From the IMG/VR virus record IMGVR_UViG_3300030329_005765, positions 1-33,539 of that record: a DNA stretch of 33,539 bases, one strand, 5' to 3'. Numbering within the stretch: the stretch's first letter is position 1; each line of letters begins with the position of its first letter. This document shows positions 8,779 through 28,390 of this stretch, in pieces. Made by a program: the position numbers and the translations under genes. The DNA is from a virus. The notes under the pieces are model-generated. The model was not told the DNA's origin, did no database searches, and worked only from the letters and a program-made list of their open reading frames with translations.

Positions 8779-9558
8779 ATGAATAAAGATAAAGGCGTTG
8801 TAAAACGTGTATTCGTAACGCCAGATAAACATTTTCCACTACATGATAAAAAAGCAATAAATGTAGTTAAGAAAGCGATAGAAATAGTGAAGCCTGATGT
8901 CTATATAGACTTAGGTGACGTAGGGGAATGGCATGGTTGCTCTCATTGGCAATGGAAAAAAAGAAAAAGACCGCCCCTAGAATATCAGTTACCGTTTATT
9001 GACAAAGATGTAAAAGATGTTAATGCTGGAATGGACTTAATTGATGAGTCCTTAGATAAGGCTAATTGCAAAGAAAAATACATGATTGAAGGTAATCATG
9101 ATGATTGGATGAATCGTTTTGTTGATGAGAATCCATACTTAACTAAATATAGGTTTGAAGAATGCGTAAAATTAAAAGAAAGAAATTACAATTACTACCA
9201 AGCAGGAAAGTATCTCAAGATTGGGAAACTTCACTTTTACCATGGCCATCACTTTGCGGGAGTTCAGCATACGAGAAATCATCTAGTGCGTCTTGGAACG
9301 AATGTAATGTATGGTCATCATCACGACATACAGCAGAGTTCTCTGACTCATATGGATGGTCAAAAGTCAGCTTGGAGCATTGGGTGCCTAAAGGATATGA
9401 GAGATGAGCAAAATACGTGGCTTGGTGGAAGGCCTATTAATTGGTCGCATGCATTTGCAATCGTAGATTTTTTCTCAAAAGGGCATTTTACTGTACACGT
9501 AATACAGATAATAGATGGAAGAACCTCATTATGGGGTGAATTGATTGATGGAAAATAA
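8779..9558 (+). CDS. Calcineurin-type metallophosphoesterase
   Basis: This 259-residue protein has the ordered metal-binding motifs of the calcineurin-like superfamily: DKH at residues 16-18, GD at 46-47, GNHDD at 105-109, HGHH at 155-158 and GHHHD at 179-183. Such enzymes use a di-metal centre to hydrolyse phosphomonoesters or phosphodiesters, including nucleic acids and cyclic nucleotides. The substrate cannot be read from the sequence. No signal peptide is present, so it acts in the cytoplasm or is packaged. It sits in an accessory block with a nuclease and membrane peptides, which could mean nucleotide scavenging, defence evasion or DNA processing. Confidence 0.85.
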   Translation: MNKDKGVVKRVFVTPDKHFPLHDKKAINVVKKAIEIVKPDVYIDLGDVGEWHGCSHWQWKKRKRPPLEYQLPFIDKDVKDVNAGMDLIDESLDKANCKEKYMIEGNHDDWMNRFVDENPYLTKYRFEECVKLKERNYNYYQAGKYLKIGKLHFYHGHHFAGVQHTRNHLVRLGTNVMYGHHHDIQQSSLTHMDGQKSAWSIGCLKDMRDEQNTWLGGRPINWSHAFAIVDFFSKGHFTVHVIQIIDGRTSLWGELIDGK

Positions 9559-14273: not shown

Positions 14274-15913
14274 TGGCCATAAGAAGAGATGCCATTTCAA
14301 GAAATATTGAGGCAAGAAAAGCCTCTGTTCCAACCATAGCAAAAGGAAAGCCTTTAGATGCACGAGGAAGTGAAGGAGATATGGCCTTCAGACGTACCTC
14401 AGCGGGCTTAAAACTATACATTAAAGCAAACCACAAATGGCATGGAGTCAAAGTTGGAGAATCGTTTGATTCATTGGAGAAAAAAATCAATGAAATCAAG
14501 TCCAAGGTTGACACCATTAAGCAATTCAGATTACCTTCAACATATTCAGTTACAGGAGACTTTACGCTTGATGCATCAGGAACCATTGAATTAAATACTG
14601 ATGGTGGACGAGTCAGCATTACAGATGATACTGCTAGTCGCTTTTTATTTGACGGTCTTTCTTCAAGACTTAGAATATATGACCATGTAAATAGTAGCGA
14701 CTATTTTACTATACAGGTAAATGACGAAGGGGCCACAACGCTTACAACTCATGATGCCGATACAACAGTAGCACATTTAAGTCTAGTGGCAATTGGAGAT
14801 ATAACTCTAGATGCGCATAATGATGTAATATTAGACCCTAGGACAGGAGTAAATAAATTTTTGCAAAGTGGAGATACTGATGATTTTTGTTCGCTTTCGG
14901 TTTCTACTCATGGCGCTACAACTATAGCTACTGTAGACGCAGCTTCCCATGCAGCAGATTTAACATTAGATGTTGATGGAACTATAAATATTGATTCTGA
15001 GGATGGGCTGATTAATTTTAAAAATTCAGGAACTACAATGGGTTTTTTGACCTCAAATAGATTTAGAATGCTTCAAAGTGCTGACCAAGCTGATACTTTT
15101 ACAATTGATGTATTTGGGTCAGGAGCAACAACTATTGCTACTGTTGATGATGGTGCTGCGATAGGGCATATAACCTTGCAGCCTGATGGAGACTTGATAT
15201 TAGACCCTGCAAGTCAAAAAGTTATCATTAATTCATCAGATGGACTTTATTTTGATGGTGGTGGAGATACTTTAATTGAATCTGCATCAGATGACACATT
15301 AAGAGTTAAGGTTGGCGGGACAGCTATGATGGTCTTAACTGAAGACACTGTTAACAAAGTTGAAATTTTAAGTTCCAATTTAGAGATTGATTCAGGCCAG
15401 GCATTTTATCTTGATGGTGGTGGAGATACTTATATAGTTGAGCATGCTGCTGACCATGTAAGGTTTTCTGTTGGGGGTGATGTTCTTGTGACTTTTGAAG
15501 AAAATGGCGATGATGGAAATCAAGTTAATTTTATGAATGCAAGTGTGGGCTTTAATCAGCTTGAGCCTACTTATGATGCAACTAATACATTTGTTGATTT
15601 TAGACATTCTAATAAGCAAAATTTAACATTTGGAAGTGGAAGCATAACAAATTTAAATCTTAATTTTCCAGGTATGTCAGGCAATTTTGTACTACTTTTA
15701 AAACAAGATGGAACAGGTAGCAGAACTATCTCTAATTATAAAGCTATGGAATATGATGAGAGTGCTGCTGATGGCTCTGCTGCTGTAGTTTGGGCAGGTG
15801 GCTCTGCTCCAACACTTACAACAGATGCAAACCACGTTGATATATTGAGTTTTTATTGGGACGCAGATAATGAGATAGCTTATGGTGTGGCAACATTGGA
15901 CTTTCAATTCTAA
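14273..15913 (+). CDS. Repeat-built tail fibre-like protein
   Basis: This 546-residue protein begins with a basic segment (MAIRRDAISRNIEARKAS), a small domain containing AFRRTSAGLKLYIKANHKWH and a coiled coil (SLEKKINEIKSKVDTIKQF, about residues 67-85). That start looks like a tail-attachment end. The rest is repeats: three units of 60-70 residues sharing GATTIATVD or a close variant and a following GDI-LD strand, then two 40-residue units with YFDGGGDTLIESASDDTLRV and YLDGGGDTYIVEHAADHVRF. The C-terminus (SFYWDADNEIAYGVATLDFQ) is another beta motif. It overlaps both neighbours by one base or so. It is likely a trimeric fibre or appendage. Confidence 0.6.
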   Translation: MAIRRDAISRNIEARKASVPTIAKGKPLDARGSEGDMAFRRTSAGLKLYIKANHKWHGVKVGESFDSLEKKINEIKSKVDTIKQFRLPSTYSVTGDFTLDASGTIELNTDGGRVSITDDTASRFLFDGLSSRLRIYDHVNSSDYFTIQVNDEGATTLTTHDADTTVAHLSLVAIGDITLDAHNDVILDPRTGVNKFLQSGDTDDFCSLSVSTHGATTIATVDAASHAADLTLDVDGTINIDSEDGLINFKNSGTTMGFLTSNRFRMLQSADQADTFTIDVFGSGATTIATVDDGAAIGHITLQPDGDLILDPASQKVIINSSDGLYFDGGGDTLIESASDDTLRVKVGGTAMMVLTEDTVNKVEILSSNLEIDSGQAFYLDGGGDTYIVEHAADHVRFSVGGDVLVTFEENGDDGNQVNFMNASVGFNQLEPTYDATNTFVDFRHSNKQNLTFGSGSITNLNLNFPGMSGNFVLLLKQDGTGSRTISNYKAMEYDESAADGSAAVVWAGGSAPTLTTDANHVDILSFYWDADNEIAYGVATLDFQF

Positions 15914-16461
15914 TGGCTTTTAAAGACACAACCTTAACCTTTGTTGATACCAAGATAACTGATGAGTCTGATGCAGAGGTTATGATGAACTGGGAAGCAC
16001 CTATAATGGAAAAGAGTGCAGAGTTTATATGTCATAATAAAGGGGATATTTTAGAGATAGGATTTGGAATGGGTATATGCTCAGACTACATACAAGCACA
16101 AGGTGTTAATTCTCATACTATTGTTGAGATACACCCACAGATTATAGAAAGGCTAAATGCTTGGGCAAATGGCAAATCTAATGTTACTGTTATTGAAGGT
16201 GATTGGAATAGTGTTAGTGGGCTTGGAACGTATGATGGGATATTTATAGATACTTATGGTGATGATAACTGGTCTAGTTTTAAGGACTTTGCATTAGCAA
16301 AAGCCAAATCAGGAGCAAAGATTACTTATTGGAACAATTTTACAGATAAAAGAAATGAACATAATTTTAGTTCAGTCAGCTTTGAAGATGTGTCAGTAAC
16401 ACCTGATAGCAACACTTATTTTAATGCAAATGTTTATAATATGCCAAAGGTAGAACTATAA
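15913..16461 (+). CDS. SAM-dependent methyltransferase, guanidinoacetate-methyltransferase (GAMT)-like
   Basis: This 182-residue Rossmann-fold enzyme has motif I ILEIGFGMG (residues 46-54), preceded by VMMNWEAPIM at about 23-32. VEIHP follows at 71-75, then EGDW at 95-98 and FIDTYGD at 111-117. VMM-WE-P-M, LE-GFGM and DTY are the landmarks of the GAMT and type-2 arginine methyltransferase family, where the DTY aspartate contacts the guanidinium group. It is shorter than GAMT (about 236) mainly at the C-terminus. It sits between two tail-fibre-type genes with TAATG overlaps on both sides, so it is translated as part of the virion operon. The substrate, perhaps an arginine side chain or small guanidine, is inferred. 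Confidence 0.75.
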   Translation: MAFKDTTLTFVDTKITDESDAEVMMNWEAPIMEKSAEFICHNKGDILEIGFGMGICSDYIQAQGVNSHTIVEIHPQIIERLNAWANGKSNVTVIEGDWNSVSGLGTYDGIFIDTYGDDNWSSFKDFALAKAKSGAKITYWNNFTDKRNEHNFSSVSFEDVSVTPDSNTYFNANVYNMPKVEL

Positions 16462-17211: not shown

Positions 17212-18183
17212 ATGTCAACAATTTATGATTTAGCAAATATACAAGCAGGAGACCCTCAAGGTCAAGTAGGAATGGCAGTTGGGGAAGCTATTTCTAAGCT
17301 AGAACAATACAAGCATCAGAAGGAAATGATTGAAGAAATTAATCAAGCATATAAATCAGCTGAAGATAAAATGAAAAAAGGTAAAAAAGGATTTGGGCTT
17401 GCCGGAAGTCTGCTTGGCGGGCTTTTAGGAATGAGCCTAGGTCCTCTTGGAGCAGCTCTTGTGTCTGCGGGTACTGCTGGGCTTGCCGAGAAAGTTCGAC
17501 AAAACACATATGACCCTACAAAAGAATTAGAAAAAATTGATAAAAAATATAAGGGAAGAAAATTAGGGGAAGGTGTTGGAGGTGTAATAGATGAGATTCA
17601 AAGCAACTTAGACTCAGCGATAGTGCAAGATGCTATTACGTCAGGTTTAAGCTCGTATGCGCTTGGAAATTTAGAGCTTGTGCCAGGAGAAACTACAGAA
17701 ATATTAGGTTCAGAAGAGGTTGCGGGTGGTTTAATTTCAGAAGATTTTGTAACAGAAGGATTACCAAATATTGCAGACGCTGATGGAAATGTATGGCAGA
17801 TTATAAGTGAACCAGAAGGTCATTCATATGCGCTCGGCCATTCTCCTGGAACTACTACAGTTCAAAATTTTGCTCCAGACTACGCTCAGACAGCAGTTGA
17901 TTATACTACAGGACCACCTTCATTTTCTATGAGTGGTTTAGATAAAGAAGCACTAAGTTCATTGGCTGGAACGAAAGGAATTGATATTTCAAAATTAACG
18001 AAAGGAATGAAATTAGATGGTCCTCTAGGCGATTTTCTTAAAAATAATCCTTGGATGGGACAAACACTTCAAGGTTTATTAAGATATGGAGGAACTCCAT
18101 TATTGCAAGACTTAATGATGAGTGAGTATCAAGCGCCACAGTTTGCTGCTGCACCATTTAGAAACCCATTTGGAGGTTATTAA
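17212..18183 (+). CDS. Ejection-type internal virion protein with Gly-rich hydrophobic segment
   Basis: This 323-residue protein has a helical N-terminus (SKLEQYKHQKEMIEEINQAY), then a Gly/Leu/Ala-rich hydrophobic stretch at about residues 60-90 (FGLAGSLLGGLLGMSLGPLG then AALVSAGTAGLAE), bracketed by lysines. Such segments are typical of podovirus ejection proteins that insert into the host envelope during DNA delivery. The C-terminus (GGTPLLQDLMMSEYQAPQFA) is polar. AGGAGAAGAAA before the ATG supports the start. It is the first of five consecutive ejection-type genes. Confidence 0.55.
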   Translation: MSTIYDLANIQAGDPQGQVGMAVGEAISKLEQYKHQKEMIEEINQAYKSAEDKMKKGKKGFGLAGSLLGGLLGMSLGPLGAALVSAGTAGLAEKVRQNTYDPTKELEKIDKKYKGRKLGEGVGGVIDEIQSNLDSAIVQDAITSGLSSYALGNLELVPGETTEILGSEEVAGGLISEDFVTEGLPNIADADGNVWQIISEPEGHSYALGHSPGTTTVQNFAPDYAQTAVDYTTGPPSFSMSGLDKEALSSLAGTKGIDISKLTKGMKLDGPLGDFLKNNPWMGQTLQGLLRYGGTPLLQDLMMSEYQAPQFAAAPFRNPFGGY

Positions 18184-19037
18184 TGCATACACCAGGACAT
18201 AATCCATATTTACAACAAATAACAGACCCATATACTTTTGATTTTGATATTTTGCCCCAGGACCCTAGAGTCCAGCCTATACAGCTTCAGCTTGACAACT
18301 TATATGGATATAAAGGAATTAATGACGAAATAATGTCGACCCTTGCTAGAATTTTTGGCAGTCAAGGAAAAGATGTTTTGAGTGTTCTTCCAGGAGTTTG
18401 GAGTGGAGATTCGGAGCATGGCTGGAATATTGGTGGCCAAGGAGGTTCGCCTATGAGTGAAGAATGGTTGCTTAACCTAGTAAATCCATCATTTAGCTTG
18501 GATGATGGTCAGCTCCAAATGGACTATGACTCTCCTGGGGGGAGTATTTACAATTGGGCAGTTAGCGATGCAAGCGATGAAACTACATATTACATCCCAC
18601 CGTCAGAGGGGAGTGTTGTTTTAGAGGGTTTAGATTTTGAAGGTCAACCACTTGGTATAAATATATTTGACCCTGAAAGTATTGCAAGTGTATTATCTGA
18701 TATGGGTGAGCTTGGTGATAAGCCAATAAAAGCTGCAGAGATTCAGGCGTTAACACCTGAAATGCTTGAAAAAACAGAGTCCCAATATTATGAACCTTAC
18801 GAAGAAGCGGAAAGAGTAAATTTGGTTGAAAAGCTTGATAAAAATATTGCAGGGGCAAAAACAGGTGGTTTTGCAGGAAGCGGTGGAAGGCGAGCAGGTT
18901 TATCAGCAGCTGACAGAATGTATAGCGCAGGATATGGAGATATTATAGCCGATATTATGAAAATGAAAGGAAAAGCAACTGGTGATGTTTTGGACACAAT
19001 TTATGGTTGGCAAGAATTGCTTTCTGAGCAAACATAA
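18183..19037 (+). CDS. Virion protein of the ejection block
   Basis: This 284-residue protein has an acidic, aromatic N-terminal two-thirds and a C-terminal segment (GAKTGGFAGSGGRRAGLSAA then DRMYSAGYGDIIADI). A Gly/Ser/Arg patch followed by an amphipathic helix of this type occurs in several phage internal or tail-tip proteins. The start overlaps the previous stop by one base. I do not recognise a family. Position between ejection-type genes suggests an internal virion or tail-tip component. Confidence 0.5.
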   Translation: MHTPGHNPYLQQITDPYTFDFDILPQDPRVQPIQLQLDNLYGYKGINDEIMSTLARIFGSQGKDVLSVLPGVWSGDSEHGWNIGGQGGSPMSEEWLLNLVNPSFSLDDGQLQMDYDSPGGSIYNWAVSDASDETTYYIPPSEGSVVLEGLDFEGQPLGINIFDPESIASVLSDMGELGDKPIKAAEIQALTPEMLEKTESQYYEPYEEAERVNLVEKLDKNIAGAKTGGFAGSGGRRAGLSAADRMYSAGYGDIIADIMKMKGKATGDVLDTIYGWQELLSEQT

Positions 19038-19048
19038 AGGAACAATAA

Positions 19049-20317
19049 ATGGCTAATGGCCCAAGATTAAAACGTCAAGGAGGATTTAAAAGCTCAAGTG
19101 GGCTTGATAATCTTATGCAAGTTTTGCAGATGGGAAGTGGAATTGCTCAATCTGTTCAACAAAACAGAGATAGAAAATTTACATATTTTAAAAGCTTTGT
19201 CGATACTCTTCTTGGAGACATGAAAGGTGAAAAAAATAGTGATATATTAAACGAAAAGCTTGAACACCTCGAAGATTATTATGGGAAAAGAGCAAATAAA
19301 AATCATTATGATACAATTGAATACATGAAAATGGCTAAGAATGCTATTGGTAATGAAATAAGAAAAAATGATGATTATAAATTAAGGCTTGATGCATGGG
19401 AAAATCAGTCAGAGATAGTAGACGATTTTGTTAATGAGCAATTTCTATATGGACAACTAGATAAAATAGGGCAAGAAAAAGTTAGAAGAGAAGATTCTGG
19501 TTTCAATGATTGGAAAGTTGAAAACCCTGCAAAACTTATTGGTGACTTGCTTCAAGACGACCATGAGCGCTATGTTGATTATCAAACATTTACAATGAAA
19601 GGTCATATGGACACTTTTGGAGATTTCATGACAAATTTTGCAGGAAAGCATGGAGAAAGAATTCCTGACGTTGTATGGAATGATATTAAGGATACTAAGA
19701 GCTATATGGCTAATATTCTTAATGATTACAAGTTTGATGGGATAATGGATGAAGTTGAGCATTCAGCGTATTGGAAACGAACACAATATGGTGATTCTGA
19801 TGACCTTGCTATGTTAAGAACCACTAAAGACCAAGCAAGAATTGAAACTACAAGAAATAATAGACTTGAATTAAAAGGAAAAATAGACGAATATAATAGA
19901 CTTAAAGGGCTTATTGACACAAAAGATGGTGGCACTGGAGAAGAACTGATGAAGGCAGAAGAAATGTTTGCTTATGTTGGGGTAGGTCAAGATTTCGTAG
20001 ACTTCGAGGCCCAGGACTACTATATGTTAGATTTAGCAGGTGCAATAGATGAGGATTGGGGAGATGCAGGTGCTTCAGTTCAACAGCAAGCTGCTTATAA
20101 GCTAAGAAATCAATATATTAATAAAATGCAAAAATTAGAAGAAGATATTAAGGGATTAAATACAAACCTTGAAAGAAGCAGTATTCACGACTCCCTTAAA
20201 GACTTTGAATTTTGGAGTCCTGTAGGAGAGGTTGAAGATGAAGTAAATTTTGAGAATCTTTCTGATGATGAATTTGATAAATTGTGGCAAGAATATGAAG
20301 GCCAAATTAATAAATAA
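19049..20317 (+). CDS. Helical internal virion protein
   Basis: This 422-residue protein is almost all alpha-helical and highly charged. Segments include SGIAQSVQQNRDRKFTYFKS near the N-terminus and a long coiled coil around residues 250-300 (TTKDQARIETTRNNRLELKG). The final residues are acidic (NFENLSDDEFDKLWQEYEGQ). There is no membrane segment. Length and composition match the helical ejection proteins of podoviruses, which form a periplasm-spanning tube. AAGGAACAATAA gives a fair ribosome-binding site. Its last base is shared with the next gene. Confidence 0.5.
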   Translation: MANGPRLKRQGGFKSSSGLDNLMQVLQMGSGIAQSVQQNRDRKFTYFKSFVDTLLGDMKGEKNSDILNEKLEHLEDYYGKRANKNHYDTIEYMKMAKNAIGNEIRKNDDYKLRLDAWENQSEIVDDFVNEQFLYGQLDKIGQEKVRREDSGFNDWKVENPAKLIGDLLQDDHERYVDYQTFTMKGHMDTFGDFMTNFAGKHGERIPDVVWNDIKDTKSYMANILNDYKFDGIMDEVEHSAYWKRTQYGDSDDLAMLRTTKDQARIETTRNNRLELKGKIDEYNRLKGLIDTKDGGTGEELMKAEEMFAYVGVGQDFVDFEAQDYYMLDLAGAIDEDWGDAGASVQQQAAYKLRNQYINKMQKLEEDIKGLNTNLERSSIHDSLKDFEFWSPVGEVEDEVNFENLSDDEFDKLWQEYEGQINK

Positions 20318-21450
20318 TGTCAAGCATAAAAAAAGAACAAATATATAAAAGGTACGGTTACGACCCTGAAAAAGAAGATTTTGGGGATTTTATTAAAAGG
20401 ATTGGAAATGAGGTTCCCTCAGATTCTTTAAATATTGTCAAAGATATGATTTTTAAGGGCCTTTCAAAAGATGATAAAATTAAAATTTTAAAATCACAAC
20501 CACCAACAAATATCAAAGAGAAAGAAGAGCCATTGCTTTCAAAAGAGGAGAAAATATTAATCCTTGAACAAGCAAAAGTTGATGGAAAAATTACAGAAGA
20601 CCAAATAAAATCTACCGTTACAGATATTAGAAAATCTAATCAAAATAAAGAAAGAAAGGAATATAAAGATAAAACTGAAAATCCTCAAGTAACGCAAATG
20701 GAGGCAAAACTAGATTCATTATACGACTCAAAGGCTAAATACCCTTATGGAGAGGCTTGGGGTCCAGATAATTGGCTTTCATATGGCGCTTCGTTTATTA
20801 CGACTGGTTGGAAAGATAGAGAAAATATGATAAATAGGCTTGAAAGAGAGTATCTTAAAAAAACTGGCAAACCTTATATTTCTAGTAAAGATGAAACGCT
20901 TTACCCTAGAGATGAGGATGGAGAACCAATATCAAATAGGCATCCAAGTGTATCAAGGTTTCATCACAAGCAAAACCTTGCTAAAGAAAAAAAGAAATAT
21001 CTTGAATCAAAATCCCTTATGGGTTCAGATTATTTATATAATACTTTAAGTATTCCAGAAGACAGTACTGGACAAGGTATAGCACTTCCCTCTGTCATAG
21101 GGGCTCCTGTTGACTATCTTTATAATGTTTTGGTAAATGCAGGCTTAGGTACTAGAGGAGAAAAGAAAGGTTATCTTCAGGATGCTGCTGAAGGAGCATC
21201 AGAGCTAAGAGACTTAGTGTCAGGAGTAGCTGAAAATGAGTTGAAAGCGCTGCAAGATATTTTTAGTAATTTTTGGGCTCCTCCTAGTTACGATGAAAAA
21301 GTTTACGATATTAAGGAACAAGAATTAATTGACAAGCCTCACTCTGACCCAATGACTATGCCTAATCCAATATTTGAAGCAGATAAAATGGAGCAATGGC
21401 TTAGAGGCCCAAGCACAAACCTGTATTATGGTGGAAGCCCAATTTTATAA
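20317..21450 (+). CDS. Charged helical virion protein
   Basis: This 377-residue protein has a Lys/Glu-rich helical N-terminal half (SKEEKILILEQAKVDGKITE) and a more ordered C-terminal half with aromatic residues and a Pro-rich end (GAPVDYLYNVLVNAGLGTRG, PMTMPNPIFEADKMEQWLRG). No catalytic motif is visible. It overlaps the previous gene by one base and precedes the giant gene by seven. I infer an ejection or internal-core role from the neighbours. Confidence 0.5.
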   Translation: MSSIKKEQIYKRYGYDPEKEDFGDFIKRIGNEVPSDSLNIVKDMIFKGLSKDDKIKILKSQPPTNIKEKEEPLLSKEEKILILEQAKVDGKITEDQIKSTVTDIRKSNQNKERKEYKDKTENPQVTQMEAKLDSLYDSKAKYPYGEAWGPDNWLSYGASFITTGWKDRENMINRLEREYLKKTGKPYISSKDETLYPRDEDGEPISNRHPSVSRFHHKQNLAKEKKKYLESKSLMGSDYLYNTLSIPEDSTGQGIALPSVIGAPVDYLYNVLVNAGLGTRGEKKGYLQDAAEGASELRDLVSGVAENELKALQDIFSNFWAPPSYDEKVYDIKEQELIDKPHSDPMTMPNPIFEADKMEQWLRGPSTNLYYGGSPIL

Positions 21451-21457
21451 ATAAAAT

Positions 21458-24400
21458 ATGAGTATAGATAGTTTACAAACAAGATTTCTTGACAATGAAA
21501 GGTTAAAAATCGGAACAGAATATCCGTCATGGTATTCAACTTTAAGCGACAAAGGCTTATATAGAAGATTAGCTAGTCAAGGAAAAGTCCCTAAAGAACT
21601 GAAAATAGAGGAGTATGAAACTGGATATTCATCCTTAGGAAAACAATCCAAATACAGCCAAGAAGAAACTGATTCAGCTCAAAACCAAATGGGCTTCCTT
21701 CAATCCTCTGCTGACTATATTATAAGTGAAAATTCTCCTGATTGGGCTAAAGCTGCCTATAATCGCTCCTTAACAGGGATGACTGAGCAGATGTTTACAG
21801 GTAAGCAAAGATATAATGTTGATGAATTAGATTTTAATATTGGCGAAGATATAGCCGCATCCTTCTTTTCATTTTTCATGCCTCTTGATATTGCAACAAT
21901 GGGGATTGGAGGGCTTTTAGGAAAAAGTGCTGCAAAGGGTCTTGGGCGGAAATGGATGGCTGAAAAAGTCGAGGAAGAGGCAATTGAAAAAGCGGTTAAA
22001 TCCATGGATAAGGATGCATTGAAAGCGCTCATGGAAAAAGCTTCTTTAACTAAGGTTGAAAAATCTTTAATTGGTGGAGCTGCCTCAGCAATAAATTTAG
22101 GAATATATGAAGGCGCAATAGGGGGAATCCAAGCAAAAATTAACAATGAAGATGTTGTGGGAGGAATAGCTCATGGAGTTTTTCATGGAGCTGCTTTAGG
22201 ATTTTTAACAGGAGCAGCTGGAGGAGGAATGGGAGCAAGGGCAGCAGAGATAGAAAAAGCTTCTGGGACTCTCGCAAAAGGAAAAGGACTAGCTAAATCA
22301 GAATGGTGGAAAACTAAAGTAGGTTATGGTATTCCTGGCCAAGTCGTAACTGAGGCTTCAATATTTACAGCTGCAGAGGCATATGAAACTAGAAATGATG
22401 CTGAAGGTGAGTCTATTCTAAAAATGCTTGCAAGGAATGTAGGTCTTTTTGGAGCTTTAAAGGTTTATGGAAAAGGACAGCAAAAGGCCTTAAAAAAACT
22501 TGAAAAAACAGATTTATATAAAGAAGTAAAAGATATAATGGATGGATGGGATGCTGAGATTGCTAATAAGCATTTCAAAGAAGGGTCATATGAAAAAGCT
22601 TTAGATAATGTAATTGATTCTACTGGAAATGAACAAGCAAAGGCTGAAAAAGTTGAATCTAAGGCTGAAACAACTGCAGTTAATGAAGTGCTTAAAGAGG
22701 TTAGTGCTGGGCTTGAAAAAATTTCAGAAAGAGTTGGTGAGGGAGATGTAGGTAAAGAAAAGCTTGAAAGAAGCGGAAAAGAAGTCGCTGAAATTAAAAA
22801 TACTTTAAAATTAGCAGAAATACTATTAGAAAAAGGGTTGAATGGAGACCTGACAAAAGAGCAGCTAGAGATAAACGAAAGACAAAGAAACAATATAGAA
22901 AAGCTTAGGGGTAAGCTTAAAGAGTTAAATGAAAAAATTACTAAGGATATGGAGGCTGATATTGAAAGGCAGGCAAATGAAGAGCCTGATGCTGGCTTAA
23001 ATCCAAAGTTTGTATTAAATAAGCTTAAAAAGCATTCTATCGATGGAGAGCCCCCAATTGATGTTAAATCTAATAATCCAAAAACAGGCAAGCCTTGGGA
23101 CCTTACTAATCCTAAAGAAGTAAAACAACTTAATGACGCTGTTGATAGTATCGCTAATAGTAAAAACAGCGAAAGTCGCCATGGAAAAAGAAAAAATTCA
23201 GCATTACAAAAAGATTTAGACTATCAAAACCAACTTGATTCTTCTAAAGAAAGAATAAGGCTTGGCGAAGAAAAACATAAAGATGAAAAAAGGTCAGGAA
23301 AACCATCTACAACCAAAACTGACAAAGCTATTCTTAATATAGATAAAGAAGTTTCTAATAAAGATGCAGACGGAAGAATTACAGAAGCTTCAAGAATTCA
23401 TAGAAATATACTTTCTGAAATTTTTGGAGAAAAAAATACATCTACCAATAAGGTAGCAGAGGCCAAGGCCGCAGTAGAATTTTTAAATTGGGTTGAAAAA
23501 AAATATAAGACAAGCATTGTAGACTTATCAAAAGAACAGTTGCACGATATTGTAGAAACGTGGGTTACAGATGTGACTATGGGAGAATTTGCTAAAGGCA
23601 AAGAACGTATAAGCCCATGGGAAACTAAAGTAAAAGAATGGCATAAAAGAGGGTGGACAGATAGCCAAATACAGCAAGTTGTATCACGTGCAAATGCTAT
23701 GCGAAACAATATACTTGGATTGGTTAGAAAAAAGGGCCTTAATAAATATACTGATGGGGCTTTTGATATTGTTAGGGATGGCACAGGTGCATCTACAGTT
23801 AAGCCAAGGCAAACCAAAGGAACAGGAAAGCCTGAGGTTAAGCTTGGGCAAATTAAAGATGGCGTTCCAGTCAAAATGGAAGAAAGTATTCAGGACCTTG
23901 CTGATACTGCAAGGAGCCAAAAAGAAAAAATAAAAGTAGGTAAAAAAGAAGTTGGTGGGGAAACTCTTGCAAATATGATAGAGTTTTCAAGAAAGCATAG
24001 ACTTAGAGAAGGTGAAATAACAGACATACAGCCTGGAGACATTGATGTAACTAATGGCACAGTAACCTTAAGGCACAAAAGAAAAACCCCTTATGTAATA
24101 AAAGATAAAGCGTTTGCTGAATTTCTTTTCGATTATGCCCAAAAACATAATAGGGTTGGTGGCAATAAAGTTCTTGACTTTACTTATAAAGAATTTTCAA
24201 AAATGATTGAGTTTTTAGCTAAAGAAGCTGGGATTCAAATAAATGTATGGGAAGGAACTGAGGGGAGGATGTATAAGTGGGGAGAATCAAGTGTTGAAAC
24301 TGGTTCACCTGTAAGAGATAAAAGCGTCTTAAAGATATTTAGGCAATCTCATAAAGTGAAGTATGGGGAAGGCGAGATGGAAGCGGCCTCAAAGATAAGA

Positions 24401-27400
24401 GGTCACGAAGGAGAAGGTGGGATTGCTGCAAAAAGATATTTATGGCAAACATTTGAAACTCTTACTGAAGCTCAAAAAAAATTAATCAAACCTACTAAAC
24501 GTCAACTAGAATTAAGAGATAGAAAACTAACAATTTCAAAAGAGCGTCAGCAATCTCAAGTAGATTATTTAAAAAGCTTACCAGGCTACAGTAATTTAGA
24601 GGTTAAGCTTGTAAAAGATTTAGGAAAACATGAAGGAAAAAAAGTGCTTGGTAGAATAACCAACCATTTAGTAGAAGTTCTTGAAGGACGTGCAAAAGAA
24701 GATACAATACCTCATGAATTTAGTCATTACGCTGTAGACGTATTAAAACAGTTTGGAACATCAAAAGATAAGGCCCTTATAGAAAAAGGCATTAAAATGT
24801 TTGCAAAGGATTTAAAAAGAGAGAAGGGCGAGAGCAAAGAAAAATTTAGAGAACGCCAAGAAGAGCTTCTTGTTCAAAGAATTGGAGAATTTACAGCAGG
24901 GAGAATGAGGGCTAAGGATTTACCAGCCCTTAAAATGAAAGACATAAAAACATTTAGTGGTAAGTTTAAATATTTTGCTAAACAATTCTGGCAAAGGGTA
25001 AAAGATGTGTTTGGTCTACACTCTAAAGATGATGTTGCTTGGATGCTTTCTAAAAAAGTTTATGAAGGAGATATTCCAACAGGAAGGGAGGTTTATAATT
25101 ATGTTGAATCCATGAGGGTCCACCATCAAACTGGGCCAAATGGAAAACCTAATCCTGCAAACACTAAAGCAAAAGAGCGTGCACAAAAAAGAGGGTTTGC
25201 ACTTCACGATATTCTTATAAAAGATTATGGGATGCCAGAAGCAGATTTAATTGCCTTAAGAGAGCAAATAGGTTTCCCAAAAGGAGCAAAAATAAAAGAT
25301 GTTTCTCTTTCAACCTTAGAATTGTGGGCGGACACTTTACAGGAAAGCTTTAATAAATATCAAGGACGTAAAACTGAAATAAAAACTCTTGCAGAGGAAT
25401 ATCAGCTTAGTGACAACGATGTAAGGACTCTTGTAGAATCTATGGGAGAGTATCATGGAGACCCATCAAAACTTTCTTCCAAAGACAGAGAAAAGTTAAA
25501 GCATTTAATTAAGGAGTCTGGAGAGAAAACTTTTGTAGAAAAGGAAGCTATGGAAGACGTTATTGCGCTTTCGGATAAAAAGTACCCATTAAGTAATCTA
25601 GCTAAACATATTGCTCCTGTTTTCTATGTCTTAAGGAAAGGTGGGAAAGCAGGAAACAGGATAGCAGATAGAATGTTTAAATGGGATGTTACATATAATC
25701 ATGAATTTAAAGGTAAAGGAGATGTTGTTGTTCATGCGGTAAGAAAAATGCTTGGAAGGGATGAAAGTTTGCTTTGGATGATGGACAGTGAGAGAGTTCA
25801 GGCTATTATGGATGCTGCGAAAGAAAAAAACAAAGATTCCAATAATCTTATAAATTTAAGAAAGAAAGCTACTGGTCTTGGAAAATATCAAAAACTAGAC
25901 CCTGAAACAGGTTTAACCAAAAAAGAAATGAAATTCCTCAAAGAGCTTGAAAATGGATGGGAAATAAAAGATTCAGATGGAAAAGTTACTAGCTATGGTG
26001 GCTCAAATGCATATATGGCAAAAATTAAGATAAAAGAGCTTTATGATTATTATTGGAACAGTATGTATACAGAGGTTAGTAAGATAAATAATAAAATTGA
26101 ATTTGAGCAATTTAAAAAAGAATTTGGAAAACTTTTTGTTGAAAATTATTTTTCAAGAAGGCTCACCAAGGCTGCTATGGAAGGGCTTGATGTTGGGCAT
26201 GCAGCACTTGAAAACACTGTCAACTCAGTTGCAAAGGATGGCGCTTTAAAAGAAGCGCAAAGACAAGCAAAACTTCTTTACCCTTCTGGAAAAGGTAAAA
26301 AATATCAGGCAGAGGTAAAGGCTATAAGAAAAAGACTTCTTGATAAAACCACTAAAGATGGTCAAAAATACTTTGAAGGGATTGAGCTTGATGTATATAA
26401 TATTGTAACACATCAACATCATAAAGTTAAAAATAAATATTTAATGGAAAGGGGTCCTCTTTTACCAGAATTTATTACTGTAAAGGATAAGCTTAATGTG
26501 ACTCAAGTTGTAAGGACTTACGAAACTAGCTTATCTAAAATTGTTGAACCATATGTAATGACTATGAGTAAATATCTTGCAACAATAAGACACTTTCCAG
26601 AATATACAGGGCTAGGAGGAAAATATAAATTAGGCGGCTCAAAACTTGAGGTTATGAAGCAAAAATTAAAAGACAATAATATGGGTGCTTATGCGGAACA
26701 GCAAATAAGAAAGCTTATAGGAGTTAATGAAGGATATAGTCTTATAGGGGCTGAAATGCCATGGCTTAATAGTTTTGCTCATTTATCTGCTGCGTGGGGC
26801 CTTTCCTCTCCAACATCAGGAATTAAAAATCTTTTAATAGGTCTGCCAAGAACGTATGCAAGTTATGGGCTAGTAAATACATTGAAAGGATTTTATAAAG
26901 TTCTTTCTCCCACAGCTTGGCAAGAAGCAAGAGAAAAGGGGGCGCTTCAATATGGTGCAAAAACCCTTGAATTAGGACAAACTCCTGGAAGAGCAATGGC
27001 TCATTTATTTAGATATAATTTAATGACATGGACAGAGAATGTAAATAGGATTGCGGCAATGGAAGCAGGTAAACTATATTTCTCTCAACAGTTAAATGCG
27101 CTTAAAGGCATTCCAACTATGTTTGGGGTTAAGCTTCCTAAAAGTTGGGCAAAAAGAGCTATGAGGGATATATGGAAGCTTTCTGATAGCGATATAAAAT
27201 TTTTAACTGAGACAGAAGCATTTAAAACAACAAAAGAGGCAGAAAGATTTAAGCAGATAATGGCTCAAGTAGAGCAATATTCACATATATCTACTCAAGG
27301 AGGGACAACAGAACATCTCTTACCTGCTGGCTGGTCTTCAAGATGGGCTAAACCTCTTACTCTTTTCCAAAGAATGGCATACGCAACAACATCTGATATG

Positions 27401-28390
27401 TATATAAACTATGTAAAGCCATTAAAGACTCACAAGAATCCTTTTCCTCTTTTAAGAGCTACAATGGGGCATGCTCTTGGTGGAGCCGCTTTGTATCAAA
27501 TGTATAAGTTTTTATTTAACCAAGAAGGCCCTCAAACAGCTCAAAAGTTTTTTGATGAGGAAAATATCGCAAACAATCAGCTTATGTATTATCTATGGAA
27601 AGGTGAGTTCTTAGGATTGTTTGGATTTGCTTTAGACCCATATGTAAAGGGTGGATTTTTAAATAAAGTATCATCACCTTTAAAAGAGGGTCCTGAAAAA
27701 ACTTTACTTTATCCTGTTGTTATAAGGAATATGGCAACCACAGCAGAGCTTGCATATGAAATTCTTATTGGCAAAGAAGGGCAGAAAGATAAACCATATA
27801 AAAAAATGATAAGCGATTGGGGAAAAAATACTGTTGTTCTTTATAGTCAGGCAGATAAAATGACCAAAAGAATAAAGTCTCCAACTTATTCTGAAAATAA
27901 AGTTATGAAAAGATGGTTAAGAAATTATATGATAGAAAAAGATTTAACTGGCAACAGTAACATGAAACATTTTGAATCTCCGTATTACTATAAAGACATG
28001 AAAGAGATGCTTCTTCTTGGTGATGATAAGCAGATGGTAAATGCTTTTTTCGCTGCATATAATGCAAAGATGGGAGATTATTTAAAGACTCCTGGAGCAA
28101 CAAAGCGTTGGGCTCACAAAATGGCAGTCAAAGGAATCAAAGCCTCGCTATCAAGCATGAACCCTATTAATGTTTCTGATAAAACTCCTAAAGGAGTCAC
28201 GATATCAAAAAGAAACGACTTTCTTAAATGGGTTAAAAAGAATTATGGCCAAGAAGGATATGACAGAATCCTAAAAGCAGAAAAAGAATATAAGTTTAGA
28301 TTAAGAAAATTTTACAAAGCCATAAAACCTAAAAAACTTTGGCTTGAAAACTCAGCATTTATAGGAAAAGAAGAGCTATCATACGAATAA
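21458..28390 (+). CDS. Giant ejection/polyvalent protein with tyrosine-recombinase and HEXXH peptidase domains
   Basis: This 2310-residue protein is a mosaic. Three Gly/Ala/Phe-rich hydrophobic stretches lie near residues 134-156, 204-226 and 235-260 and may insert into membranes. Residues about 340-640 are charged coiled coil and linker. Residues about 650-775 read as an integrase core-binding domain (AVEFLNWVEKKYKTSIVDLS, SRANAMRNNILGLVRKKGLN). Residues about 820-1000 carry the catalytic set R850 (LREGEI), K874/K876, K959-x-x-R962, GH982-983 and Y994. HEFSH at 1086-1090, with a possible third ligand E1144, marks a zinc peptidase. The rest is helical with hydrophobic patches near 1767-1815 and 1965-2020. 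Domain mixing of this kind is known for polyvalent proteins delivered with phage DNA. Confidence 0.7.
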   Translation: MSIDSLQTRFLDNERLKIGTEYPSWYSTLSDKGLYRRLASQGKVPKELKIEEYETGYSSLGKQSKYSQEETDSAQNQMGFLQSSADYIISENSPDWAKAAYNRSLTGMTEQMFTGKQRYNVDELDFNIGEDIAASFFSFFMPLDIATMGIGGLLGKSAAKGLGRKWMAEKVEEEAIEKAVKSMDKDALKALMEKASLTKVEKSLIGGAASAINLGIYEGAIGGIQAKINNEDVVGGIAHGVFHGAALGFLTGAAGGGMGARAAEIEKASGTLAKGKGLAKSEWWKTKVGYGIPGQVVTEASIFTAAEAYETRNDAEGESILKMLARNVGLFGALKVYGKGQQKALKKLEKTDLYKEVKDIMDGWDAEIANKHFKEGSYEKALDNVIDSTGNEQAKAEKVESKAETTAVNEVLKEVSAGLEKISERVGEGDVGKEKLERSGKEVAEIKNTLKLAEILLEKGLNGDLTKEQLEINERQRNNIEKLRGKLKELNEKITKDMEADIERQANEEPDAGLNPKFVLNKLKKHSIDGEPPIDVKSNNPKTGKPWDLTNPKEVKQLNDAVDSIANSKNSESRHGKRKNSALQKDLDYQNQLDSSKERIRLGEEKHKDEKRSGKPSTTKTDKAILNIDKEVSNKDADGRITEASRIHRNILSEIFGEKNTSTNKVAEAKAAVEFLNWVEKKYKTSIVDLSKEQLHDIVETWVTDVTMGEFAKGKERISPWETKVKEWHKRGWTDSQIQQVVSRANAMRNNILGLVRKKGLNKYTDGAFDIVRDGTGASTVKPRQTKGTGKPEVKLGQIKDGVPVKMEESIQDLADTARSQKEKIKVGKKEVGGETLANMIEFSRKHRLREGEITDIQPGDIDVTNGTVTLRHKRKTPYVIKDKAFAEFLFDYAQKHNRVGGNKVLDFTYKEFSKMIEFLAKEAGIQINVWEGTEGRMYKWGESSVETGSPVRDKSVLKIFRQSHKVKYGEGEMEAASKIRGHEGEGGIAAKRYLWQTFETLTEAQKKLIKPTKRQLELRDRKLTISKERQQSQVDYLKSLPGYSNLEVKLVKDLGKHEGKKVLGRITNHLVEVLEGRAKEDTIPHEFSHYAVDVLKQFGTSKDKALIEKGIKMFAKDLKREKGESKEKFRERQEELLVQRIGEFTAGRMRAKDLPALKMKDIKTFSGKFKYFAKQFWQRVKDVFGLHSKDDVAWMLSKKVYEGDIPTGREVYNYVESMRVHHQTGPNGKPNPANTKAKERAQKRGFALHDILIKDYGMPEADLIALREQIGFPKGAKIKDVSLSTLELWADTLQESFNKYQGRKTEIKTLAEEYQLSDNDVRTLVESMGEYHGDPSKLSSKDREKLKHLIKESGEKTFVEKEAMEDVIALSDKKYPLSNLAKHIAPVFYVLRKGGKAGNRIADRMFKWDVTYNHEFKGKGDVVVHAVRKMLGRDESLLWMMDSERVQAIMDAAKEKNKDSNNLINLRKKATGLGKYQKLDPETGLTKKEMKFLKELENGWEIKDSDGKVTSYGGSNAYMAKIKIKELYDYYWNSMYTEVSKINNKIEFEQFKKEFGKLFVENYFSRRLTKAAMEGLDVGHAALENTVNSVAKDGALKEAQRQAKLLYPSGKGKKYQAEVKAIRKRLLDKTTKDGQKYFEGIELDVYNIVTHQHHKVKNKYLMERGPLLPEFITVKDKLNVTQVVRTYETSLSKIVEPYVMTMSKYLATIRHFPEYTGLGGKYKLGGSKLEVMKQKLKDNNMGAYAEQQIRKLIGVNEGYSLIGAEMPWLNSFAHLSAAWGLSSPTSGIKNLLIGLPRTYASYGLVNTLKGFYKVLSPTAWQEAREKGALQYGAKTLELGQTPGRAMAHLFRYNLMTWTENVNRIAAMEAGKLYFSQQLNALKGIPTMFGVKLPKSWAKRAMRDIWKLSDSDIKFLTETEAFKTTKEAERFKQIMAQVEQYSHISTQGGTTEHLLPAGWSSRWAKPLTLFQRMAYATTSDMYINYVKPLKTHKNPFPLLRATMGHALGGAALYQMYKFLFNQEGPQTAQKFFDEENIANNQLMYYLWKGEFLGLFGFALDPYVKGGFLNKVSSPLKEGPEKTLLYPVVIRNMATTAELAYEILIGKEGQKDKPYKKMISDWGKNTVVLYSQADKMTKRIKSPTYSENKVMKRWLRNYMIEKDLTGNSNMKHFESPYYYKDMKEMLLLGDDKQMVNAFFAAYNAKMGDYLKTPGATKRWAHKMAVKGIKASLSSMNPINVSDKTPKGVTISKRNDFLKWVKKNYGQEGYDRILKAEKEYKFRLRKFYKAIKPKKLWLENSAFIGKEELSYE

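Follow-up and report, generated by a model that had tools for sequence, protein, structure and literature searches.

Could a phage carry a ready-made recombinase into the cell inside one of its own virion proteins? The question is raised by a 33,539-nt (33.5 kb) stretch of viral DNA, IMG/VR record IMGVR_UViG_3300030329_005765 (hereafter the window), whose structural operon ends with a gene for a protein of 2310 residues (hereafter the giant). An earlier note on this sequence had read the middle of the giant as the core-binding and catalytic domains of a tyrosine recombinase. We find that residues ~646-1000 are a tyrosine recombinase homologue, an assignment that we hold to be nearly certain. 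That the giant is an ejected polyvalent protein whose recombinase processes incoming phage DNA is a larger proposal, to which we give a probability of about 0.5.

Searches with the capsid protein and with the giant's C-terminal part yielded ~40 distinct giants on contigs of uncultured viruses (L numbers below). Eighteen giants with the domain in its usual (canonical) order, the window included as lead, were aligned (alignment A5). Searched against the PDB, the A5 profile matched XerC-like 4a8e (5e-8), XerA (3.7e-6), IntI4 (1.8e-4), and XerD (1.7e-3), and R850, R962, GH, and Tyr were aligned onto the Xer catalytic residues. The window fragment alone matched NCBIfam XerA (2.8e-5), and the single window protein gave a weak Pfam Phage_integrase (PF00589) match (0.051). 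Curated cut-offs were passed by relatives: L185 for PF00589 (6.5e-14), and L118 for Phage_int_SAM_4 and SAM_1, the latter also in the L126 and L143 records. L118 moreover covered most of the XerD model (2.5e-12). For the window's own core-binding domain the evidence is the alignment and the structural model, the Pfam SAM cut-offs being passed in relatives, and the recombinase domain scores far below the curated XerD cut-offs.

The membership of the window in this family was also seen with hidden Markov models (HMMs). The HMM from all other canonical relatives scored the window at 114.6 bits (7.1 for shuffles), and an HMM lacking the window and its 5 nearest relatives matched window residues 658-971 at 21.2 bits, where the highest-scoring of 500 shuffles reached 9.3. 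When the HMM was built solely from the nine most distant canonical families, the window went undetected; thus, the link between window and family passes through intermediates. By phmmer, the single window domain drew only chance-level matches from the PDB, and a nucleotide-pattern scan with the window recombinase domain returned no relatives.

An AlphaFold model of the window domain built from A5 reached a predicted local distance difference test (pLDDT) score of 72 and a predicted template-modelling (pTM) score of 0.54. In a fold search, it matched almost exclusively tyrosine recombinases and type IB topoisomerases, including IntI (Z 13.0), XerH (Z 12.5), Cre chains (Z 10-11.6), HP1 integrase (3.4 Å over 146 residues), P2 integrase (3.1 Å over 140 residues), and lambda Int. 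The earlier note had proposed a structural comparison with XerD, lambda Int, and P2 Int; the outcome favoured the tyrosine recombinase fold. A single-sequence AlphaFold model of the domain (pLDDT 39) was uninformative. Topoisomerase IB chains scored Z 8.7-9.6, which would suit an enzyme able to nick or relax entering or host DNA at no fixed site, and the module swapping described below suggests an effector-like slot. We consider such a topoisomerase-like role very unlikely: the sequence profiles select Xer over topoisomerase IB, the core-binding domain is of Xer type with curated Pfam matches in relatives, and the GH motif stands in Xer-like order.

The best sequence and structure matches are the Xer-type recombinases (XerA, XerC, XerD, XerH, and the integron IntI), with which the window shares a SAM-like core-binding domain followed by the catalytic domain and the series R...K...xxxR...GH...Tyr at Xer-like spacing. 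Fold, domain order, and catalytic residues are of the Xer type, and the reading in the earlier note is supported by the fold search and by conservation of R850, R962, and Y994. Unlike Xer proteins, the window domain is embedded at residues 646-1000 of a ~2300-residue protein, the box II His is usually replaced, and many relatives are permuted.

The residues that had been named as catalytic (R850, K874/K876, K959-x-x-R962, GH983, and Y994) all stand where they were placed. In re-alignments of the 18 giants with extended ends, R850 was invariant (18/18), Y994 was Tyr in 17/18, and R962 was Arg in 16/18 and Lys in 2/18; E853, close to Arg I, was conserved in 17/18. The remaining positions fared unevenly, since H983 held in 12-13/18 and the K874/K876 column did not hold as a column: Lys occurs at 874 or 876 in 4-7/18, because the alignment splits the hairpin Lys across columns, and by eye every relative has a Lys in its hairpin. 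Complete HxxR is found in L185 (HxFRHS box) and in the ambiguous L141 and L144. The domain probably retains catalytic competence in most family members, and the odds are better than even that it does so in the window protein.

The relatives further appear, from sequence comparison, to hold a circularly permuted tyrosine recombinase, with the Arg-I helix after the Tyr. This is the case in at least 16 relatives, a lower bound; the window itself is canonical. In the permuted class, no Arg-I helix lies ahead of the beta-hairpin, and a TGPRLNEI-like segment lies C-terminal to the Tyr. An HMM of the Arg-I segment matched 16/16 permuted and 0/19 canonical giants; it was trained on 12 of the 16, and the remaining four scored 10-19 bits. 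Moving the segment back to its canonical place gave a profile-profile score to the canonical domain of 57.6, vs. 43.4 when it was left out and 39.5-49.7 when control segments took its place. Across 11 permuted members aligned after rotation, T34, R37, E40, K69, G127, R141, and Y179 are invariant, corresponding to R-K-R-Y. The rotated profile had a single weak PDB match (0.0082), chain 9i5v_14; this chain is titled RaiA in the copy searched, probably through a naming mix-up in the entry, since by sequence it aligns with tyrosine recombinases.

Permuted domains occur in giants made of a single open reading frame (ORF; L151, L156, L157, L160, L163, L164, L165, L166, L175, L184, and L190) and in giants split into two (L129, L146, L137, L138, and L135). 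In the split giants, to which L101-L103 can be added, adjacent ORFs of ~1200 and ~1020 residues are found, the former encoding the permuted recombinase. L175 has GVRTGEI at the canonical place (residue 872) as well as TQGRMKEI after the Tyr (residue 1126), and is perhaps an intermediate of the permutation. In L141 (residues ~1185-1240) and L144 (~1040-1100), a box II of the form HKVRHS or HKNRHS is followed by a downstream Tyr with no recognisable Arg-I segment at either place, possibly a third type of arrangement, or else an Arg I that has diverged.

Judged by sequence, the recombinase is a cassette exchanged between otherwise similar giants. Canonical and permuted modules are intermingled on the tree of the C-terminal chassis. 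The permuted L156 and canonical L167 share about 13-28% identity within residues ~548-950 and 58-69% beyond them, and the same swap pattern was seen between L121 (degenerate) and L185 (complete box). Sharp cassette boundaries and degenerate copies would also be left by the integrase gene of a selfish element that inserted in frame and is now decaying. We give this explanation hardly any credence, as the cassette occupies one and the same in-frame position even in deeply separated parts of the chassis tree and has conserved catalytic residues.

How might such a cassette reach the cell? The order tail genes, 323-, 284-, and 422/377-residue ORFs, giant is maintained in several relatives, with the giant gene closing the structural operon; for this reason, an internal virion or ejection protein is its most likely identity. 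In most single-ORF giants, the recombinase is followed by a zincin-like module with an HExxH motif (H1086-E-F-S-H1090 in the window). The zincin profile had no match in the PDB, and the assignment therefore rests on the motif and its context. Several unrelated enzymatic domains (recombinase and HExxH module) occur in one protein, as in polyvalent proteins, and a recombinase adjoining a zincin fits this theme. In the description of Iyer et al. (2017; PMC5512222), polyvalent proteins are believed to accompany the DNA on entry and to undergo processing by zincin peptidases. They are likewise giant, multidomain, and encoded among virion genes; the main text of that paper mentions integrase or recombinase 0 times. 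Podovirus ejection proteins (T7 gp14-16 and P22 gp7/16/20) resemble the giant in being encoded where the structural operon ends and in a probable role in DNA delivery, with no sequence relationship to the giant found. Given its gene position and architecture, the giant is probably a polyvalent ejection protein and quite probably accompanies the phage DNA on its way into the cell.

On this basis, we propose that the giant, consisting of N- and C-terminal chassis, Xer-type recombinase, and zincin protease, would be packaged with the genome and ejected into the cell together with the DNA. By analogy with the polyvalent-protein model (Iyer et al., 2017), it would then be cleaved by its own zincin, releasing the recombinase, which would cleave and rejoin the incoming phage DNA site-specifically through Arg/Lys/Arg/His/Tyr chemistry. 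Packaging, ejection, processing, activity, and DNA target are all steps that we infer. The most likely outcome would be circularisation or resolution of a terminally redundant genome before phage gene expression; action on phage DNA to this end is a tentative suggestion, somewhat short of even odds.

The model for such a role is P1 Cre, a tyrosine recombinase by which a terminally redundant phage genome is circularised on arrival. Cre is newly synthesised as a free protein, whereas the present recombinase belongs to a putative ejection protein. Of 10 contigs checked, 5 had ends with direct overlaps of 74-270 bp, at differing map positions, compatible with circular, terminally redundant genomes. 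The circular maps, and the place of the gene in a late structural operon, would equally suit a recombinase that resolves concatemers or multimers during packaging and is then merely carried along. This late action is distinctly unlikely: such an enzyme would have no need of being fused to an apparent ejection protein and a zincin, and to our knowledge Xer-type concatemer resolution is not a usual packaging step.

Another use of an injected recombinase would be insertion of the phage into the host chromosome on entry, for example at dif or a tRNA gene. Xer is exploited by many mobile elements, and the nearest kin of the window domain are Xer proteins. In 46 related records, all PF00589 matches fell inside the giant ORF, and no free-standing PF00589 integrase gene was detected; many of these records are fragments, and the sensitivity of the model is modest, as many giants with a recognisable domain also give no match. 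We nevertheless rate an injected integrase as unlikely, since no arm-binding domain was recognised, no dif-like site was found, and a scan of a one-genome-per-species bacterial collection for one narrow motif gave no confirmed relative of the zincin module.

Several observations weigh against an active recombinase delivered with phage DNA. The pLDDT of the model is only 34-53 from box II to the Tyr. In A5, the alignment behind the model, the Tyr column falls on F999, while both end-extended re-alignments put it on Y994; this misplaced column may have weakened the model at that end. K959 takes the place of the box II His in the window, this His is usually replaced across the family, and the GH motif is absent from L121, L145, and L147. 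Some chassis have no recombinase (L124, L159, and L104-L108) and others only a core-binding remnant (L099 and L143), so the recombinase is not essential everywhere. A search for att sites, directed at dif-like patterns and inverted repeats, found the dif-like/Xer-like pattern in the window at chance level and inverted repeats within the shuffled range. Finally, tblastn with the window and L118 giants gave no match in cultured phages.

These points bear on the main rival, a tyrosine recombinase fold that is inert and serves only for DNA binding or anchoring in the capsid or cell. SroF, YopR, and MrpR of SPbeta-like phages are catalytically inactive repressors, and all three were among the structural matches of the window-domain model. 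Absence of GH in some relatives, loss of the domain in others, and Lys for the box II His in the window would also suit an inert fold. In contrast to SroF, YopR, and MrpR, which have the fold in common with the window domain, the present family has its catalytic residues among the most conserved columns, in the canonical and permuted classes alike, and R-K-R-Y is still invariant despite the permutation. An inert fold is a minority explanation, though the strongest of them.

If the delivery proposal is correct, this would be the first phage-genome-delivered recombinase, as far as our literature search showed. Among open-licence papers, we found no description of a recombinase in an ejected protein or in permuted or swapped form, and an ejection-protein review (PMC8954989) leaves recombinase and integrase unmentioned. 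Circularisation, integration, or resolution could start before gene expression and independently of host enzymes, and a DNA-rearranging enzyme would join the catalogue of polyvalent injected proteins. The permuted members would offer a natural test of how far the Cre/Xer active site tolerates rewiring. The phages are uncultured, probably short-tailed, and likely marine, judging from where the collection was sampled and from a weak resemblance of the capsid protein to those of marine phages; genome processing on entry becomes directly testable in them. It is an even bet that widespread uncultured marine phages deliver a pre-made, exchangeable recombinase in an ejection protein and have evolved an active permuted tyrosine recombinase. 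The earlier note is extended by the finding of permuted versions, swapping of the cassette, a near-universal zincin, the lack of a detectable separate integrase, and lineages with a degenerate or lost domain.

Table 1. Features of the giant and its upstream neighbours in the window.
Feature	Coordinates	Strand	Remarks
Giant ORF (2310 aa), polyvalent protein, putatively internal to the virion and ejected	21458..28390	+	Final gene of structural operon
N-terminal chassis region, Gly-rich, partly hydrophobic, residues ~88-350	21719..22507	+	Kept in relatives with and without recombinase
Core-binding (SAM-like) domain, residues ~646-760	23393..23737	+	Helical in model; L118, L126, and L143 above Pfam Phage_int_SAM_1 cut-off
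Tyrosine recombinase catalytic domain, residues ~815-1000	23900..24457	+	Profile to PDB Xer proteins; NCBIfam XerA; fold search
Arg I, R850	24005..24007	+	Sole invariant column of A5
Beta-hairpin Lys, K874/K876	24077..24085	+	Columns loosely aligned
Box II Arg, R962	24341..24343	+	K959 at the His place of HxxR
H983 of GH motif (G982-H983)	24404..24406	+	
Putative nucleophile Y994	24437..24439	+	
Zincin-like metallopeptidase module	24533..24820 (HEFSH motif 24713-24727)	+	Alignment A4, HExxH invariant; directly 3' of recombinase
C-terminal chassis domain, conserved, residues 1485-2290	25910..28327	+	Alignment A1; bait for relatives
Four ORFs 5' of giant (323, 284, 422, and 377 aa)	17212..21450	+	Synteny kept for several in relatives; may also be internal virion proteins

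Outside the recombinase and zincin modules, the N-terminal chassis region of the giant has hydropathy peaks at residues 132-137 and 233. Profile searches with the C-terminal chassis domain gave no PDB relative and no informative PHROG relative. The four ORFs upstream of the giant matched no family of known function in searches that included PHROGs, and PADLOC gave no result. Family searches showed that the window also encodes a P22-like portal, an SU10-type major capsid protein, and a DnaB helicase. Within the structural operon, we also noted a possible calcineurin-like phosphoesterase (8779-9558) and a possible methyltransferase (RrnaAD/Methyltransf_25; 15913-16461).

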